Source of the DNA: Granulosicoccus antarcticus IMCC3135 | Lineage (GTDB): Bacteria > Pseudomonadota > Gammaproteobacteria > Granulosicoccales > Granulosicoccaceae | Assembly: GCF_002215215.1 (NCBI RefSeq) | Contig: NZ_CP018632.1 | Coordinates: 4,894,501-4,958,500 of the forward strand | DNA length: 64,000 nucleotides | Reading direction: 5' to 3' | Shown here: positions 896-58,449 of the stretch, piece after piece | Layout: each line of letters starts with the position of its first letter | Numbering within the stretch: position 1 is the stretch's first letter | The notes under the pieces: generated by a model | The model's input: the letters and a program-made list of their open reading frames with translations, nothing else | The model's database searches: none | What the model was told of the DNA's origin: nothing | Position numbers and translations under genes: made by a program

Positions 896-2344
896 GTGAC
901 CGTATCTACAGCGCATCTGAACACGTATATCGAAGAACAAGGCTTGGCCGAACAGATGATCCCATCGGTGGGTTCCCTCTATCGCAATCGCGGTGTCATT
1001 GTTACGGTATTTGGTCGCAAACTGATGAATGGGTCAACCATTGACATCATCAAAGCCCACCAGCAGGCACTGCAGGTCGTTGGCGAGAAAGTGACGTTGT
1101 TGGAAACCAGTGCGGTGCTGAACGTGCTTACCGCTGTTCAGCCAGGCAGTTCACGCATCGATATCGGCAAGCTGGCTTTCGGCGCACGTCAGGCTGGGCT
1201 GGTAGATGAGCCGGCCGCATTACTCAACTACGTGAAAGAGGCACTGCAGGACATTCCCGATGCCTCATCCGTACTTGAAGAACCTCGCGATGTCGTGCTT
1301 TATGGCTTTGGCCGTATCGGTCGTATCCTGGCACGACTGCTGATCGAACGCACGACATCCAACAACCCTCTGCGGTTGCGGGCCATTGTCGTTCGAGGCG
1401 GCCGCGAAGGCGATTTGCGCAAACGTGCCAGCCTGCTGCGTCGTGACTCCATTCACGGCCCATTCAACGGACATGTGTCGGTTGATGAGGAGAATAGCGC
1501 CATCATTGCGAACGGCAATTTCATCAAGGTGATCTATGCCAATCAGCCCGAAGATATCGATTACACCGCCTATGACATTCACGATGCCCTGATTGTCGAC
1601 AACACCGGTGTGTTCAAGGATGAGGCCGCTCTGAGCCGACATCTGGTCCCCAAGGGCGCCCGCAAGGTCCTGCTCACCGCCCCTGCCAGCGGTGCGATCA
1701 AGAATATCGTCTACGGCGTGAATCACGACATGATTGAGGACGATGACATGATTGTCTGTGCAGCAAGCTGTACGACCAATGCCATCACACCGGTCCTGAA
1801 GATCATCAATGACCGATTCGGCGTCATCAATGGCCATGTGGAAACCGTACATTCCTACACCAATGACCAGAATCTGATCGACAACTACCACTCGGCAGAT
1901 CGTCGTGGTCGCAGTGCTCCGCTCAATATGGTACTAACCTCAACCGGTGCGGCCAAGGCTGTGTCCAAGGCCCTGCCGGAACTGGAAGGCAAACTGACGG
2001 GTAATGCCATTCGTGTGCCGACGCCCAATGTTTCCATGGCCGTGTGCAACCTGAACCTGGAAAAGGCAACCAACCGGGAAGAATTGAACGACTACGTCCG
2101 TGAAATTGCCTACAACTCTGCGCTGAGTCAGCAGGTCAGCTACTCGTATAGCACCGAGGTGGTGTCAACCGATTTTGTCGGCACGCCAGAGCCTGCCATA
2201 TTCGATTCCGTTGCAACTATCGTAGACGGCAATCGCTGTGTGCTGTACGTCTGGTATGACAACGAGTTTGGCTACAGCACGCAGGTACTGCGCGTCATGC
2301 AACACATGGTAGGCCTGCATATCCAGAACGTTCCGGCCATCTGA
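896..2344 (+). CDS. gap: Glyceraldehyde-3-phosphate dehydrogenase, long form
   Basis: NAD(P)-dependent oxidation of glyceraldehyde 3-phosphate to 1,3-bisphosphoglycerate, in the cytoplasm. At 482 residues it is about 150 longer than classical GapA because of an N-terminal extension (residues 1-130), as in the long GAPDH-like proteins of pseudomonads and vibrios. The Rossmann motif GFGRIGR is at 137-143, the catalytic motif CAASCTTN at 288-295 (nucleophile Cys292) and the base His319 in HSYTND. The start is GTG, preceded by AAAGGACG. It is monocistronic, with a hairpin after the stop. The family is certain; whether it acts in glycolysis or gluconeogenesis is not readable here. Confidence 0.93.
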   Translation: MTVSTAHLNTYIEEQGLAEQMIPSVGSLYRNRGVIVTVFGRKLMNGSTIDIIKAHQQALQVVGEKVTLLETSAVLNVLTAVQPGSSRIDIGKLAFGARQAGLVDEPAALLNYVKEALQDIPDASSVLEEPRDVVLYGFGRIGRILARLLIERTTSNNPLRLRAIVVRGGREGDLRKRASLLRRDSIHGPFNGHVSVDEENSAIIANGNFIKVIYANQPEDIDYTAYDIHDALIVDNTGVFKDEAALSRHLVPKGARKVLLTAPASGAIKNIVYGVNHDMIEDDDMIVCAASCTTNAITPVLKIINDRFGVINGHVETVHSYTNDQNLIDNYHSADRRGRSAPLNMVLTSTGAAKAVSKALPELEGKLTGNAIRVPTPNVSMAVCNLNLEKATNREELNDYVREIAYNSALSQQVSYSYSTEVVSTDFVGTPEPAIFDSVATIVDGNRCVLYVWYDNEFGYSTQVLRVMQHMVGLHIQNVPAI

Positions 2345-53129: not shown

Positions 53130-55058
53130 TCATGCAACAGGCACTGTCGCAACCTCGTCGGCTTTCTGTTCACGTAGCATGTCCAGAATGGCCTCTTTCA
53201 GATTCTCTGGAGAAACCGGTTTGGTGAGACAGTGAAAGCCGGCTCTTTCAATCTCATGCAATTCATCAGCTCCCGAGGCACCACTCACCAACATGGCCGG
53301 CATAGCCTGCTCCAGGACTTCACGCAATAGTTGAATCGCATCGAGTCCGCTGCAGCCGTTTGCCAGATGCAAATCACACACCACCGCATCCGGCTCAAGG
53401 GCAAGAGAGAACAATCGTTGCAGCCCTTCTTCCGCATCACGCACACACACAGCGATGCACCCCCACTGAGTCAGCATGCTTTGCATGGCGTCCCGTATGG
53501 CGACATCATCATCGATAAAAACGATGCAACGTCGCAACAGATTTTCCTCTGTTTTCACAGATTCAAATGCCCGACTATCACCAGGATCACTGGAATTCGA
53601 TTCACGTTCGGGTGATGAATCGCACGATTCAACGCCTGTCGCCATCAGCAACCTGACTTCCGTACCGCCGCCCTTAGCCACATCCAACTTGATATCTATA
53701 TCAAGCAATGCGCTCAGTCTGTGCACTATGGATAATCCAAGCCCAACCCCTGAAGCCCTCTGACTATCACCCTCCATCAGCTGATAGAACTCACTGAATA
53801 CTTTCTGGCGCTCAGAGTCGGGTATGCCATGCCCGGTATCACTGACAAGGATGCTCAGACCCGCGCTTTCACGGCGGACAATGATGGACACACCTCCGGT
53901 CTCGGTAAATTTGATGGCATTGCTGATCAGATTTCGCAATATCCGGGCAAACAAGGTGCGATCGGTATAGATAATTTCATTCGGGTAATCACACACACAA
54001 TACAAGCCTTTCTCACTGGCCACCGGCGAGAACTCTAGCGAGAGTAGCTCGAAAATCGATTCCAGAGAGACTGCCTCATATTCCGGCTTTACTACATTGG
54101 CATCCAGCCTTGAGACATCCAGCAGGCTGTTGAACATATTGTTGAGGGCCACCGTCGATTTTTCGATGGATTCAAACAGCTTCTGATTTGTCTCATTCTC
54201 GCTCTTCTGTCGCAAAGCGTGATGAAAAAGCCCGAGGGCATGTAATGGTTGTCGCAGATCATGGCTCGCTGTTGCCAGAAAGCGGCTCTTGTCGATAACC
54301 GCTTGTTCGGCACGTGCCTGGGCTTTTTGCGCGAACGACTGCTGCAATGACAAGCTTTCAACAAGGGCCTTGTTTTCAAGGTTCAGTCGGGCAATGTGTC
54401 GGTAACGGTTCTGAGTCAGGCGCCCCAGCAACTCAATACTGAGCACTGTTATCACGATGATCAGCGCCAGCAACCACAAGTCCTTTCCCCCACTGTAGAC
54501 AAGCATTACAACCATAGGCGTTACCAGACTTGACAACATGAACCGGGAAACAGGCGGAAAAAACACGGTAACTGCAGACAATATGCAAACCAGAGAACAG
54601 AAAGCCCCAATCAACAATAGTCTGTTCTGATCAGGCATGGGATAGAAAACGGCCAGACTCGCCAGTCCGTATATGACACCTGAATAGACCGAACCTGCAT
54701 CAAAAACAAGCCGCCAGCAAGGGGCGCATTGCTTACTCTGAGACAATCGTTTGTACTTTTCACCGACGTAAACCTTGATCGCCCCCTCAATGACACAGGC
54801 GACCAGAAACCAGACAAGCCATAAAGTCGGCACATGCCCCCTTACGGCATAGATACCAACGCCCAGAATCGCAAATACCGATATTGCGTAGTACTTGCTA
54901 TGTACAAGCACGTCACGAATCAGCATATGCTCCCAGTCATTCAAGGGAACGGTTCGGTAGTCTCGATAGGACGAGGCAATTGTGGCAATCCATGACCTGT
55001 TGCCGCTCTCGCCTCTCATCCCTCTCTCTCGATCTGCATACGCACAAACACCGGTCAT
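53130..55058 (-). CDS. Hybrid sensor histidine kinase/response regulator
   Basis: 642 residues. An N-terminal membrane domain (about 55-215) has six hydrophobic segments and short loops, a coiled coil (225-262), HisKA with the phospho-acceptor His266 in FLATASHDLRQPLHALGLF, HATPase_c (N box LRNLISNAIKFTE near 377, DTGHGIPD, GVGLGLSIVHRL) and a receiver domain (CIVFIDDDVAIRD, phospho-acceptor Asp562 in VVCDLHL, Lys in CLTKPVSPE). It has no Hpt or DNA-binding output. An ATG at 55019 behind GAGAGAGGG may be the true start. No partner regulator gene is adjacent. Confidence 0.9.
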   Translation of the reverse strand: MTGVCAYADRERGMRGESGNRSWIATIASSYRDYRTVPLNDWEHMLIRDVLVHSKYYAISVFAILGVGIYAVRGHVPTLWLVWFLVACVIEGAIKVYVGEKYKRLSQSKQCAPCWRLVFDAGSVYSGVIYGLASLAVFYPMPDQNRLLLIGAFCSLVCILSAVTVFFPPVSRFMLSSLVTPMVVMLVYSGGKDLWLLALIIVITVLSIELLGRLTQNRYRHIARLNLENKALVESLSLQQSFAQKAQARAEQAVIDKSRFLATASHDLRQPLHALGLFHHALRQKSENETNQKLFESIEKSTVALNNMFNSLLDVSRLDANVVKPEYEAVSLESIFELLSLEFSPVASEKGLYCVCDYPNEIIYTDRTLFARILRNLISNAIKFTETGGVSIIVRRESAGLSILVSDTGHGIPDSERQKVFSEFYQLMEGDSQRASGVGLGLSIVHRLSALLDIDIKLDVAKGGGTEVRLLMATGVESCDSSPERESNSSDPGDSRAFESVKTEENLLRRCIVFIDDDVAIRDAMQSMLTQWGCIAVCVRDAEEGLQRLFSLALEPDAVVCDLHLANGCSGLDAIQLLREVLEQAMPAMLVSGASGADELHEIERAGFHCLTKPVSPENLKEAILDMLREQKADEVATVPVA

Positions 55059-55272: not shown

Positions 55273-55803
55273 TTATTGCGATTCGATCCGTATTGACAAT
55301 GTCTCTGTCTCAAGCTGGACAAGGGTTTGTTCATTGAGATGCACATGACCATCGATAGTCGTCGGCGTGAAACTGACGGCATACTCACCGGGTGCTGACA
55401 TTGCATAATAATCAGCGATATTCATCTGCACGTCGACCCGCTCATGAGCGGGTATTTTCAGATAATCCTCTTCTGAGGGTGATGATCTCTTGACCATTCG
55501 CCCCTCATAGGCGACTGGCTCTCCATCCAGTGTGACGGTAAAAACATCTGCTGACAGATTACGTTCCAGCGGAGTATTCCAGATCAGTAAATCAATCTCA
55601 GTGTCACTGTTATTGCGGACATAGAATGTGAGTTCGGATCTGACAGCCTTGTCATCGTCAGCTTCTATACCTGCAACCAACACCGCTTGCATCGAGTCTT
55701 CCGGCATTTTAACAACCTTGTTGATCTGCTCGCTCGCACTGCAGGCGCTGCCTCCCAGAACCATCATCAGAGCAAAAACCGCGAAAGTCTTGAAGTGCAT
55801 CAT
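55273..55803 (-). CDS. Lipoprotein homologous to the N-terminal domain of the adjacent M35 protease
   Basis: 176 residues with a lipobox (LGGSAC, Cys at about 22) after a short signal. The body (45-165) closely follows residues 35-140 of the neighbouring protease: VRNNSDTEIDLLIWNTPLERNLSADVF here against LTNTGSSTLSVLRWDTPFEDALSSDVF there, then GRMVKRSSPSEEDYLKIPA against GRSVKRGVPTTDEYLVLAP. It has no catalytic domain. Its ATG overlaps the protease stop (ATGA), so it is made with the protease. An inhibitor or chaperone role for the protease is a reasonable inference. Confidence 0.75.
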   Translation of the reverse strand: MMHFKTFAVFALMMVLGGSACSASEQINKVVKMPEDSMQAVLVAGIEADDDKAVRSELTFYVRNNSDTEIDLLIWNTPLERNLSADVFTVTLDGEPVAYEGRMVKRSSPSEEDYLKIPAHERVDVQMNIADYYAMSAPGEYAVSFTPTTIDGHVHLNEQTLVQLETETLSIRIESQ

Positions 55804-57737
55804 CCCCGCCCCCTTCTCGTCACTGAACGTTGATAGGCAAGCGATAGCAGTAGCACACCGAGTCCCCAGAAATTCAAGGAACCAATACCACTACTACTAC
55901 TTGATGCTATTGGCGTTACGGATGGAACCAGATCATCATCCGGAATTGCTGGCGTTGTTGTAGGCGCATCAGGTACTGATGGTGTGACAGGGACAACCGG
56001 TGCTGGGTCATCATCGTCCGGCAGTGGTGCGATGGGATCTGCTGTCTGTGAGGTTGCCAACAGTGAATAATCGGAGGCCGTGGAGCCGACAACCAATACG
56101 TAGTAGGTATTGTCCGGCAACGGCAAGTCACAGCTATCCGTCGTTGAGTCGGCAATAATCGAAGCAGATGCGCAGACCAGGTTCGCATCGACAAAGTCTA
56201 TGGAATCGAAGATATAAAGATCAGCATCACCACTGAGTGACTCCAGCTCGACAAGTTGCGCACCATTTACCAGATAGACGTCTCGCGCATTCTCTTCCAA
56301 TGCGCCTGCCAAGGCGCTATCCAGTTCCAGAGTTACTGCTGCTGGCGCGACGGGCTCCGGGGAGCTGGCTTCCAGCGTGAAGCTGGCCGAGGTAAACCCG
56401 AAAACCCGGATATACACGGTACCTTCCACAAAATTCTCACAGATATCGACCGCATTTGCATTGATCGAATTACAGCTCTCTGCACTCAGTGCCTCATCCG
56501 TGTAAACATACAGATCGGCATCGCCAGAGATTGAGGTCAAAGTGATCTTCTGAGCACCGCTCACCTGGTAGGTAATGAAGTCATCGCTGCCCACCGTTCC
56601 ACTGAGCGAGGTATCCAGCGTCAACGTCGTGTGCTGCAAGGGCTGCGTAGGATTCGTGGTACCGAGAATTTCCAGTTCAGGAGTATTTTCTGCAAAATAT
56701 TCATGGCTATCGGCATTGGCAATGGCTTTCTCCGGATCTGTCGTGGCCAGACTTTGCGCGCCCCGCTGCGAGTAGACGTTATCGTCGGTATCAGCAAGTA
56801 CGGTGAAATGCGACAGTTCATGAACGATGGTGCCCGCGCGTGAATCTGTACCACTCAGACTTGCCGAACGGAACGATGGACAGAGATAGATCTCATACGG
56901 CCTGCTCGGAAACACATAGGCATACGTATTTCGCTCATCGCAGCTGCAGTCATACTGAATCTGTTCGTCTGCCAGTGCCGTGCCGATTGACTGGAAATTA
57001 GACAACACTCGAGTAAAGCGCGCCTCCTCATACTCACCGAACCAGGTAACGTATCGCGGTGAACCGGAGCGCTCATCGCTGGCCAGACTCTCAAGATCCG
57101 CAATAGCGGTGTTCACGTACTCCTGCGCCAGCTCTGTGGCCGCAAATATATCGGCCTGCTCCTGCACTGAACAGCTTTCATAGGCCGGCGTCAGCGCACG
57201 CAGCGACACTGCAGGAGCCATGTTCACAGCCACACTGTTGGATTTCAGGGTATCAACACTCAGCAGCTCAGGCTCCGGCGCCTTACGCACCGAAGTACTC
57301 TTTGAGGATGAGCTCTCGACGCTATACCGCAACTGGCCAGCAAAACTCACGCTGCGTCCATCTGCTTTGTCAATACGGTAATAGTCATTCAGTTTGACGG
57401 TACGGCTGGCAGTCTCGCCCGGTGCCAGAACCAGATACTCATCAGTCGTCGGTACGCCACGCTTGACTGAACGACCTATATAAGCGGCTTGCTCAACCAG
57501 CGGCCAGTCCTTGCTATAGCGTTCTACCCGAAAGACGTCGCTGGACAAGGCATCTTCGAATGGTGTATCCCAACGCAATACTGATAGCGTACTGCTGCCT
57601 GTATTGGTCAGAGAGACTGCCACACTGCCGGCCGCGCTGCCTGGCTCAAGAACAAGCCGCAACGGACCTGCGTGCACGGCCATCGACGAGAGGCAGCACA
57701 ATAAAACGGCAGCAAAGCGGGTTATGCGAAAGCGCAT
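55800..57737 (-). CDS. Secreted M35-type (peptidyl-Lys-like) metalloprotease with GlyGly-CTERM
   Basis: 645 residues. Signal peptide 1-23; N-terminal domain 24-140 of the peptidyl-Lys metalloendopeptidase propeptide type; M35-like catalytic domain about 185-352 with GTIVHELSHFTVLADTDD (HELSH 306-310; Asp in the aspzincin position) and NADSHEYFAEN; two pre-peptidase C-terminal-type beta domains (about 368-460 and 470-565, each with SGDADLYV/SGDADLYIF); a Pro/Asp linker; and a C-terminal GlyGly-CTERM anchor (SSSSSGIGSLNFWGLGVLLL then RRGRG). Rhombosortase cleavage and type II secretion are expected for such tails. Confidence 0.87.
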   Translation of the reverse strand: MRFRITRFAAVLLCCLSSMAVHAGPLRLVLEPGSAAGSVAVSLTNTGSSTLSVLRWDTPFEDALSSDVFRVERYSKDWPLVEQAAYIGRSVKRGVPTTDEYLVLAPGETASRTVKLNDYYRIDKADGRSVSFAGQLRYSVESSSSKSTSVRKAPEPELLSVDTLKSNSVAVNMAPAVSLRALTPAYESCSVQEQADIFAATELAQEYVNTAIADLESLASDERSGSPRYVTWFGEYEEARFTRVLSNFQSIGTALADEQIQYDCSCDERNTYAYVFPSRPYEIYLCPSFRSASLSGTDSRAGTIVHELSHFTVLADTDDNVYSQRGAQSLATTDPEKAIANADSHEYFAENTPELEILGTTNPTQPLQHTTLTLDTSLSGTVGSDDFITYQVSGAQKITLTSISGDADLYVYTDEALSAESCNSINANAVDICENFVEGTVYIRVFGFTSASFTLEASSPEPVAPAAVTLELDSALAGALEENARDVYLVNGAQLVELESLSGDADLYIFDSIDFVDANLVCASASIIADSTTDSCDLPLPDNTYYVLVVGSTASDYSLLATSQTADPIAPLPDDDDPAPVVPVTPSVPDAPTTTPAIPDDDLVPSVTPIASSSSSGIGSLNFWGLGVLLLSLAYQRSVTRRGRG

Positions 57738-57905: not shown

Positions 57906-57992
57906 TGGTGCCCGGGGCCGGACTTGAACCGGCACGACCTTACGGTCGAGAGATTTTAAGTCTCTTGCGTCTACCAATTTCGCCACCCGGGC
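57906..57992 (-). tRNA. tRNA-Leu (UAA)
   Basis: An 87-base tRNA on the minus strand. Acceptor GCCCGGG pairs with CCCGGGC, the CCA is encoded, the T-arm is GGTTCAAGTCC, and a long variable arm is present. The anticodon stem-loop GAGACTTAAAATCTC gives TAA. Its place after tRNA-Cys and tRNA-Gly matches leuZ in E. coli. Confidence 0.94.
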
Positions 57993-58138
57993 ATTTCAGG
58001 GGAGATACAAACCTCTGCCGTGGTAGCGCGATTATTGGCAGGGCCTTACTCGAGATAACACCGAGTCTACATGTGACGTAATACGAGTGGCACGTATCGA
58101 CACAAATCACGCGGATAAAAGTGCTTACCGCGTAACAA

Positions 58139-58212
58139 TGGAGGCTGAGCCCGGAGTCGAACCGAGGTAAACGGATTTGCAATCCGGTGCATAGCCACTC
58201 TGCCACTCAGCC
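58139..58212 (-). tRNA. tRNA-Cys (GCA)
   Basis: A 74-base tRNA on the minus strand with acceptor GGCTGAG/CTCAGCC, encoded CCA, T-arm GGTTCGACTCC and anticodon loop TTGCAAA giving GCA. It lies between tRNA-Gly and tRNA-Leu as cysT does in E. coli. Confidence 0.94.
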
Positions 58213-58251
58213 GAGTGTCGTACAAAATACAAGCTAAAATCAGACCAGAAA

Positions 58252-58327
58252 TGGAGCGGGAAACCAGGTTCGAACTGGCGACCTCAACCTTGGCAAGGTT
58301 GCGCTCTACCAACTGAGCTATTCCCGC
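58252..58327 (-). tRNA. tRNA-Gly (GCC), copy 1
   Basis: A 76-base tRNA on the minus strand, acceptor GCGGGAA/TTCCCGC, encoded CCA and anticodon loop TTGCCAA giving GCC. Identical to the copy at 58374-58449. Confidence 0.95.
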
Positions 58328-58373
58328 ACCGATCGTGATTTTACTACAAAAAACTAAATTGCCAAAAAATAAT

Positions 58374-58449
58374 TGGAGCGGGAAACCAGGTTCGAACTGG
58401 CGACCTCAACCTTGGCAAGGTTGCGCTCTACCAACTGAGCTATTCCCGC
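58374..58449 (-). tRNA. tRNA-Gly (GCC), copy 2
   Basis: Identical in sequence to the copy at 58252-58327, in tandem with a 46-base spacer. The first bases beyond the 5' ends (accgatc) are also shared, consistent with a tandem duplication. It directly follows pgsA on the transcribed strand. Confidence 0.95.

Follow-up and report, generated by a model that had tools for sequence, protein, structure and literature searches.

A 64,000-nucleotide stretch of the genome of Granulosicoccus antarcticus IMCC3135 (assembly GCF_002215215.1, contig NZ_CP018632.1, positions 4,894,501 to 4,958,500), called the window below, carries on its minus strand a gene for an M35 metalloprotease and, overlapping its end, a small gene whose product we identify, from sequence comparisons and structure models, as a homologue of the protease's own N-terminal domain and of the propeptide of AsaP1 (PDB 2x3a-c). 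We will argue that the small gene probably encodes a membrane-anchored, propeptide-derived active-site inhibitor that guards the producer from its protease. The evidence comes from sequence analysis: the homology itself, the coupling of the two genes, their conservation, a separate lineage of the copies, gene fusions, and a pattern linking one lysine to one glutamate. If the proposal is true, a specificity-matched inhibitor gene would explain how a producer survives its own M35 enzyme, and a domain left unmatched by the Pfam and NCBIfam models in the searches made would gain a function. The two facing residues would in addition offer a simple test of how a propeptide-derived inhibitor tracks a change in protease specificity.

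The likeness between the small protein and the N-terminal domain of the protease, noticed in a first-pass annotation of the window, is confirmed by BLASTP, which aligns residues 64-145 of the former with residues 45-132 of the latter with 30 identities in 88 positions (34%, E 4e-12). Using phmmer, residues 4-354 of the protease match the zymogen of AsaP1 (PDB 2x3a) with E 5.1e-54, and the small protein taken by itself aligns with the propeptide of that entry (E 3.9e-13). The domain inside the protease will be called the cis domain (about residues 24-152, positions 57282..57668, minus strand), and separate or fused copies will be called trans. When the PDB is searched with a profile built from 32 trans copies, the AsaP1 propeptide comes up with E 9.7e-26, which puts the likeness far beyond chance and bears out the earlier suggestion that the shared domain is propeptide-like; together with the BLASTP value it rules out a fortuitous resemblance or an artefact. 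The underlying alignment, A4, holds 28 stand-alone and 4 fused copies out of 34 trans or fused rows, the omitted L184 and L185 being near relatives of rows that were kept.

The structure models agree with this assignment. AlphaFold gives confident models, with a predicted local distance difference test (pLDDT) score of 91.1 for the lipoprotein and 91.9 for residues 23-360 of the protease. The trans domain, at about residues 34-166 (55306..55704, minus strand), is modelled as a beta sandwich, and the lipoprotein model superimposes on residues 23-154 of AsaP1 2x3c with Z 14.5 and a root-mean-square deviation (rmsd) of 2.3 Å over 116 residues. The paper on the AsaP1 structure, as cited in PMC9229710, names intramolecular inhibition by the propeptide in its title. 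The lipoprotein matches no Pfam or NCBIfam family at E<=10, and the 32 copies of A4 give Pfam matches that are weak and scattered (best 0.003; 10 families at E<=0.1, PF12690 absent among them).

The two reading frames lie where they were first described. The protease gene (645 residues, 57737..55800) is followed by the small gene (176 residues, 55803..55273), whose start lies within the end of the former, the overlap being ATGA at 55800-55803. The larger product is indeed an M35 enzyme, as had been annotated: PF14521 (M35 aspzincin) is found at residues 221-350 (56688..57077, minus strand) with 141.8 bits against a cut-off of 30 (E 2.6e-41). This region contains the zinc motif HELSH, and HE..H and the later Asp are invariant across our alignments. 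The full architecture comprises a signal-like N-terminus, the cis domain, the M35 domain, two PPC (pre-peptidase C-terminal) stretches, the better of which spans residues 496-550 (PF04151; 56088..56252, minus strand), and a C-terminal tail.

We now consider where the two proteins would reside. In the small protein, a putative signal peptide (residues 1-20, 55744..55803, minus strand) precedes Cys21. The canonical lipobox is L-[AS]-[GA]-C, whereas the box here is GSAC; a cysteine after a hydrophobic segment is present in all 25 stand-alone copies examined from the order Granulosicoccales and in 17 of 33 others (L234, a truncated gene from the order, is counted among these 33). Some of the other copies that lack it, inspected by eye, begin with an ordinary signal or with a hydrophobic segment that has no clear cut site. 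The small protein is a putative lipoprotein, probably anchored in the membrane; with a box that departs from the consensus, the name given to it at first is less secure than it sounded.

The tail of the protease (55803..55922, minus strand) has the architecture of a GlyGly-CTERM signal, with a Ser/Gly run, a hydrophobic stretch and a basic end, and the genome encodes a rhombosortase (147.5 bits against a cut-off of 84). The curated model does not bear out the GlyGly-CTERM label of the first-pass annotation: the tail does not match TIGR03501 at E<=1, whereas five other places in the genome do; the protease has no NCBIfam match at E<=10. Among proteases with a cis domain, a trans copy accompanies 37 of the 41 that have a hydrophobic C-terminal tail and 16 of the 75 others, relatedness not being removed from these counts. 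The tail threshold was chosen after viewing the tails (1.9 earlier, 1.8 later), L083 was classed by eye, and the comparison omits 3 truncated loci, the 5 fusions and 24 units lacking a cis domain. The association suggests that an inhibitor is retained in those cases in which the enzyme crosses the envelope or remains there.

Two other kinds of C-terminus were observed. Short hydrophobic tails like P-I-L-x-L-L-L-D/E-D, with no basic end, occur in L221 and many M35 proteins of the gammaproteobacterial family f223 (L221, L224, L225, L228, L261, L263, L264, L265, L267 and L268), and may represent a signal for sorting or anchoring that has so far gone unrecognised. In the order, three M35 proteases that lack a partner copy (L072, L075 and L076) have no sorting tail and end in DxDGDGWGWxG motifs.

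The pairing is conserved. The genome of G. antarcticus holds a second pair (locus L002, 1489..3774 and 926..1492) that also overlaps by four bases. PF14521 matches in 25 of 48 genomes of the order (34 matches), and the trans-copy profile matches in the same 25; three matches to the N-terminal domain on contigs with no M35 match (L234, L235 and L236) all lie at contig ends. A stand-alone copy lies downstream of 25 of the 34 M35 genes, including L069, which is cut before its own N-terminal domain, and two more carry a C-terminal fusion, giving 27 of 34. Four genes have a cis domain and neither kind of copy, and three have neither a cis domain nor a neighbouring copy. The objection that the lipoprotein might not be conserved next to the protease, raised with the original suggestion, thereby falls away.

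A wider set of loci includes the best 80 of 454 relatives, a sample that leans to sequences near those of the window and in which the nearest named loci belong to Granulosicoccus and Granulosicoccaceae. All loci together give 171 units, 148 after removal of M35 domains nearly identical at 98%, and 124 of these have a cis domain. A stand-alone copy was found within 500 bp in 54 of the 124, and a C-terminal fused copy in 5. For these 54 proteases the copy lies downstream on the same strand (37), upstream on the same strand (11), downstream on the opposite strand (5) or upstream on the opposite strand (1), a copy between two proteases being counted for both. Four further units have a neighbouring copy and no visible cis domain: L110, L114, the second of the two proteases at L102, and L140, which is cut at the contig start. 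Beyond the order, pairs are also present in members of the Gamma- and Betaproteobacteria and of the Myxococcota, with record titles including Thalassomonas, Rubrivivax, Thiosymbion, Thiothrix, Massilia, Pseudoduganella, Derxia, Archangium and Myxococcales, and in plasmid-collection records of Aeromonas caviae and Pseudoalteromonas xiamenensis. Many relatives, the Lysobacter, Xanthomonas and Chromobacterium loci among them, lack a copy in the stretch examined.

An AsaP1-type gene followed 43 bp downstream by a stand-alone copy was seen in Aeromonas caviae NZ_AP026896.1 (L272, 3384-4905). The record lists no gene at this place (its table has 18 features), and it is titled a plasmid yet is 4.9 Mb, the size of a chromosome.

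The trans copies also form a lineage of their own. In a tree computed for 168 domains, the main group of the order has 23 copies, stand-alone or fused, and these make up one clade with a Shimodaira-Hasegawa-like approximate likelihood ratio test (SH-aLRT) support of 99, apart from the cis domains, which rules out a recent duplication in the G. antarcticus genome. Three other copies of the order (L088, L090 and L094) group in another clade, and the cis/trans label changes 8 times over the tree, which is built on few columns and has many unresolved forks. One could imagine that the copy is merely a drifting duplicate of the propeptide with no role, and a locus with nearly identical cis and trans domains (L102, with branches of 0.066 and 0.048, the result of a recent duplication or conversion) shows that duplications recur. 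Against such drift stand the supported clade and the features that the trans copies keep: the Gly, Lys and Arg of the motif discussed below, the lipid-type cysteine in all 25 copies of the order, and the place beside the protease gene. We consider a copy devoid of function very improbable.

In five loci (L063, L068, L133, L139 and L227) the copy is fused in frame behind the protease. The middle of these proteins begins with a Gly-rich, hydrophobic tail that contains Arg; a further hydrophobic stretch follows it and ends in SAC or AGC. By its sequence this middle is a sorting tail and a lipoprotein signal run together. Rhombosortase and signal peptidase II could split such fusions, making them possible self-splitting polyproteins.

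We now turn our attention to the residues that link the copies to the specificity of the enzyme. Lys-N enzymes, the M35 proteases used in proteomics, cleave before lysine, and the E157D substitution in the Grifola enzyme broadens the specificity to arginine (PMC11985622). In the window protease, alignment to 1g12 places Glu346 of NADSHEYF (codon 56700..56702, minus strand) at the position of this Glu157 of Grifola frondosa Lys-N (GfMEP), a residue that sets P1' specificity, and on the basis of this S1' glutamate the enzyme is predicted to be a Lys-specific M35 protease of Lys-N type. The proposed P1' bait is Lys92 of 'SVKRG' in the cis domain (codon 57462..57464, minus strand), and its counterpart in the trans domain is Lys105 of 'MVKRS' (codon 55489..55491, minus strand).

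The cis lysine of 'VKR' is present in 115 of 115 domains when the S1' glutamate is present and in 2 of 9 when it is absent. Its loss is specific, because the adjacent Arg and a nearby Gly stay in both groups (106/106 with and 7/7 without the glutamate, in an earlier set of 113). Beside proteases with a cis domain, the trans lysine is found in all 45 readable copies where the glutamate is present (a further copy, L079, is truncated ahead of the site) and in 4 of 8 where it is absent; fused copies have it in 5 of 5. Two of the lysines kept at Glu-less proteases (L225 and L266) belong to copies that lie between two proteases, one of which has the glutamate. The trans copies thus follow the pattern more loosely than the cis domains do. 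The G. antarcticus genome itself holds both states, with Glu and Lys/Lys in the first pair and Thr with Gln (cis) and Arg (trans) in the second. Plain Fisher tests on the earlier set, which ignore relatedness, give 2.8e-9 for the cis and 2.4e-5 for the trans lysine. A search of one further order for Glu-less proteases added one member of the non-Lys kind (L266, like L225) and one exception (L257); the second order searched in this way is represented by one genome. The pattern suggests that the domain contacts the S1' pocket.

The same pattern would also be produced by a cleavage site. The lipoprotein might be a decoy substrate or an activation cofactor, with the lysine marking a Lys-specific cut and the anchor tethering the protease or timing its release, and the link between C-terminal tail and trans copy (37/41 against 16/75) would suit such a role at the membrane. 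However, the Gly, Lys and Arg of G-x-x-x-K-R are invariant in the 32 copies of A4, which goes beyond the needs of a bare cleavage site, and the position of the lysine is within the domain and not in the linker that leads to the catalytic part. A decoy or cofactor is in our judgment quite unlikely.

For the inhibitor, we propose the following sequence of events. The protease would be translated first and the lipoprotein directly after it. The zymogen would be exported with its N-terminal domain covering the active site and placing the lysine of 'VKR' before the S1' pocket, where M35 enzymes of Lys-N type have a glutamate, and maturation would remove this domain. The lipoprotein, a paralogue of the cis domain with the same lysine, would be anchored at the periplasmic face of the envelope and would capture the active enzyme as the cis domain does, protecting the producer up to the release of the enzyme or its display on the outside. 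The parts of this scheme that we infer are lipidation, location, maturation, binding, inhibition and self-protection.

A trans inhibitor was one of two roles suggested by the first-pass annotation, and it agrees with the Lys/Glu pattern. The other role, a membrane-held steric foldase for the protease, is its main rival. Propeptides often help folding, and Lif, the lipase-specific foldase encoded downstream of type II-secreted lipases, resembles the lipoprotein in gene order and anchoring. Two divergent M35 genes with no cis propeptide (L110 and L114) adjoin a separate propeptide-like gene, as would suit a folding helper supplied in trans. On the other hand, 54 of the 58 proteases with a neighbouring copy have a visible cis domain, which would make a second foldase redundant, and many proteases (65/124) have the cis domain alone and no partner copy. 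We therefore regard the foldase as unlikely and the inhibitor as the better account of the lipoprotein.

It is important to point out that several observations weigh against the inhibitor. No neighbouring or fused copy is seen for those 65 proteases in the stretch examined. Four tail-bearing proteases lack a copy (L260, L263, L264 and L268), and L092 has a tail but neither a cis domain nor a copy. The cis lysine is kept in the Glu-less L164 and L257 and the trans lysine beside the Glu-less L089 and L164, and copies beside M35 units with no visible cis domain have the lysine in only one of four cases. The tree implies about 4 losses of the glutamate, about 3 of the cis lysine and 2 of the trans lysine, too few for a sign test. 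The independent-pair test is not significant, with 2 pairs on starred branches for Glu/cis Lys and 2 for Glu/trans Lys; for the tail and the trans copy there are 3 on such branches, and all branches give 4, 3 and 8 pairs, respectively. These tree-based tests were made before L257 and L266 were added. The Lys/Glu pattern alone does not separate a bait from an (auto)cleavage site. Finally, each domain of the zymogen model has the same fold as in the AsaP1 crystal chains, but the placement of the domains differs (rmsd 16.4-16.5 Å over 271-285 residues in one comparison, 17.0-17.7 Å in another), and because of this difference docking of the lysine is not seen in the model.

Taking the argument one step further, the window pair may belong to a widespread unnamed family of envelope-anchored, propeptide-derived M35 inhibitors, in which the bait residue co-evolves with the S1' pocket, one cell may hold two orthogonal, specificity-matched pairs, and some lineages fuse the partners into a polyprotein, with the sorting tail and then the lipobox in its middle, poised for splitting in two. 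This broader picture is more tentative, and we place it slightly short of probable.

As to the surroundings, four tRNA genes (Leu, Cys, Gly, Gly; 57906-58449, minus strand) lie upstream of the protease gene, and a 642-residue reading frame that reads like a sensor kinase (53130..55058, minus strand) lies downstream; because of these neighbours the two genes look like a unit of their own. Promoter-like matches (4, against 2.5 with a standard deviation of 1.4 in shuffled sequences) and terminator-like matches (1, against 2.0 with 1.3) are at about the level of the shuffles.

It remains to compare the pair with known systems. The zymogen of AsaP1 from Aeromonas salmonicida (PDB 2x3a/b/c) shares with it the domain family of the lipoprotein, the fold, the 'KR' motif and the M35 protease family, but there the domain is the cis propeptide of the protease. 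AsaP1 is said, in the title of a 2009 paper, to be a major virulence factor, and we know of no report of a separate propeptide-like gene for it. SpeB of Streptococcus pyogenes (C10) is a cysteine protease of unrelated fold, and its inhibitor Spi is not known to have a lipid anchor. Like the lipoprotein, Spi is encoded next to its protease, and it is called a propeptide analogue (PMC2873492), but its presumed site of action is the cytoplasm (PMC3462683). By adjacency to its cognate protease and homology to the propeptide of that protease, the lipoprotein is of the Spi-like kind, with inhibition predicted.

The potempins of the KLIKK proteases (Tannerella forsythia) are small inhibitory lipoproteins encoded beside a secreted protease, as mentioned in PMC7296668 as data to be published, but their genes precede that of the protease and they are not described there as propeptide relatives. 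Bfi and Bti, the inhibitors of Bacteroides C10 proteases, are co-transcribed and exported, and several are predicted lipoproteins (PMC2873492, PMC3462683); they differ in being staphostatin-like, with no significant identity to known protease propeptides according to PMC2873492. The target family of emfourin (M4in), the inhibitor of protealysin, is M4 instead of M35. Emfourin is not known to be a relative of a propeptide. It resembles the proposed system as a metalloprotease inhibitor encoded in one operon with its target, bound 1:1 at the active-site region (PMC9505478).

BsuPI/IPI of Bacillus subtilis (3isy) has an Ig-like fold and is the best match other than AsaP1 of both the trans model (Z 7.1) and the cis domain (Z 8.4), over 112 residues each. 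The identities are 15% and 11%, and the Z values lie in or near the range of common arrangements. According to PMC3901451 it targets a serine protease and does not inhibit metallopeptidases. The BsuPI family (MEROPS I22, PF12690) is not detected in the lipoprotein, which matches no Pfam family; judged from the models, a distant kinship of the M35 propeptide domain and the IPI inhibitor families is possible. Our searches of open-access papers found no stand-alone propeptide-type inhibitor described for M35, and the earlier statement that this pairing had no described case holds for M35 within those searches but not for the kind of system. The proposed inhibitor would act in the manner of the Spi/SpeB and potempin/KLIKK pairs.

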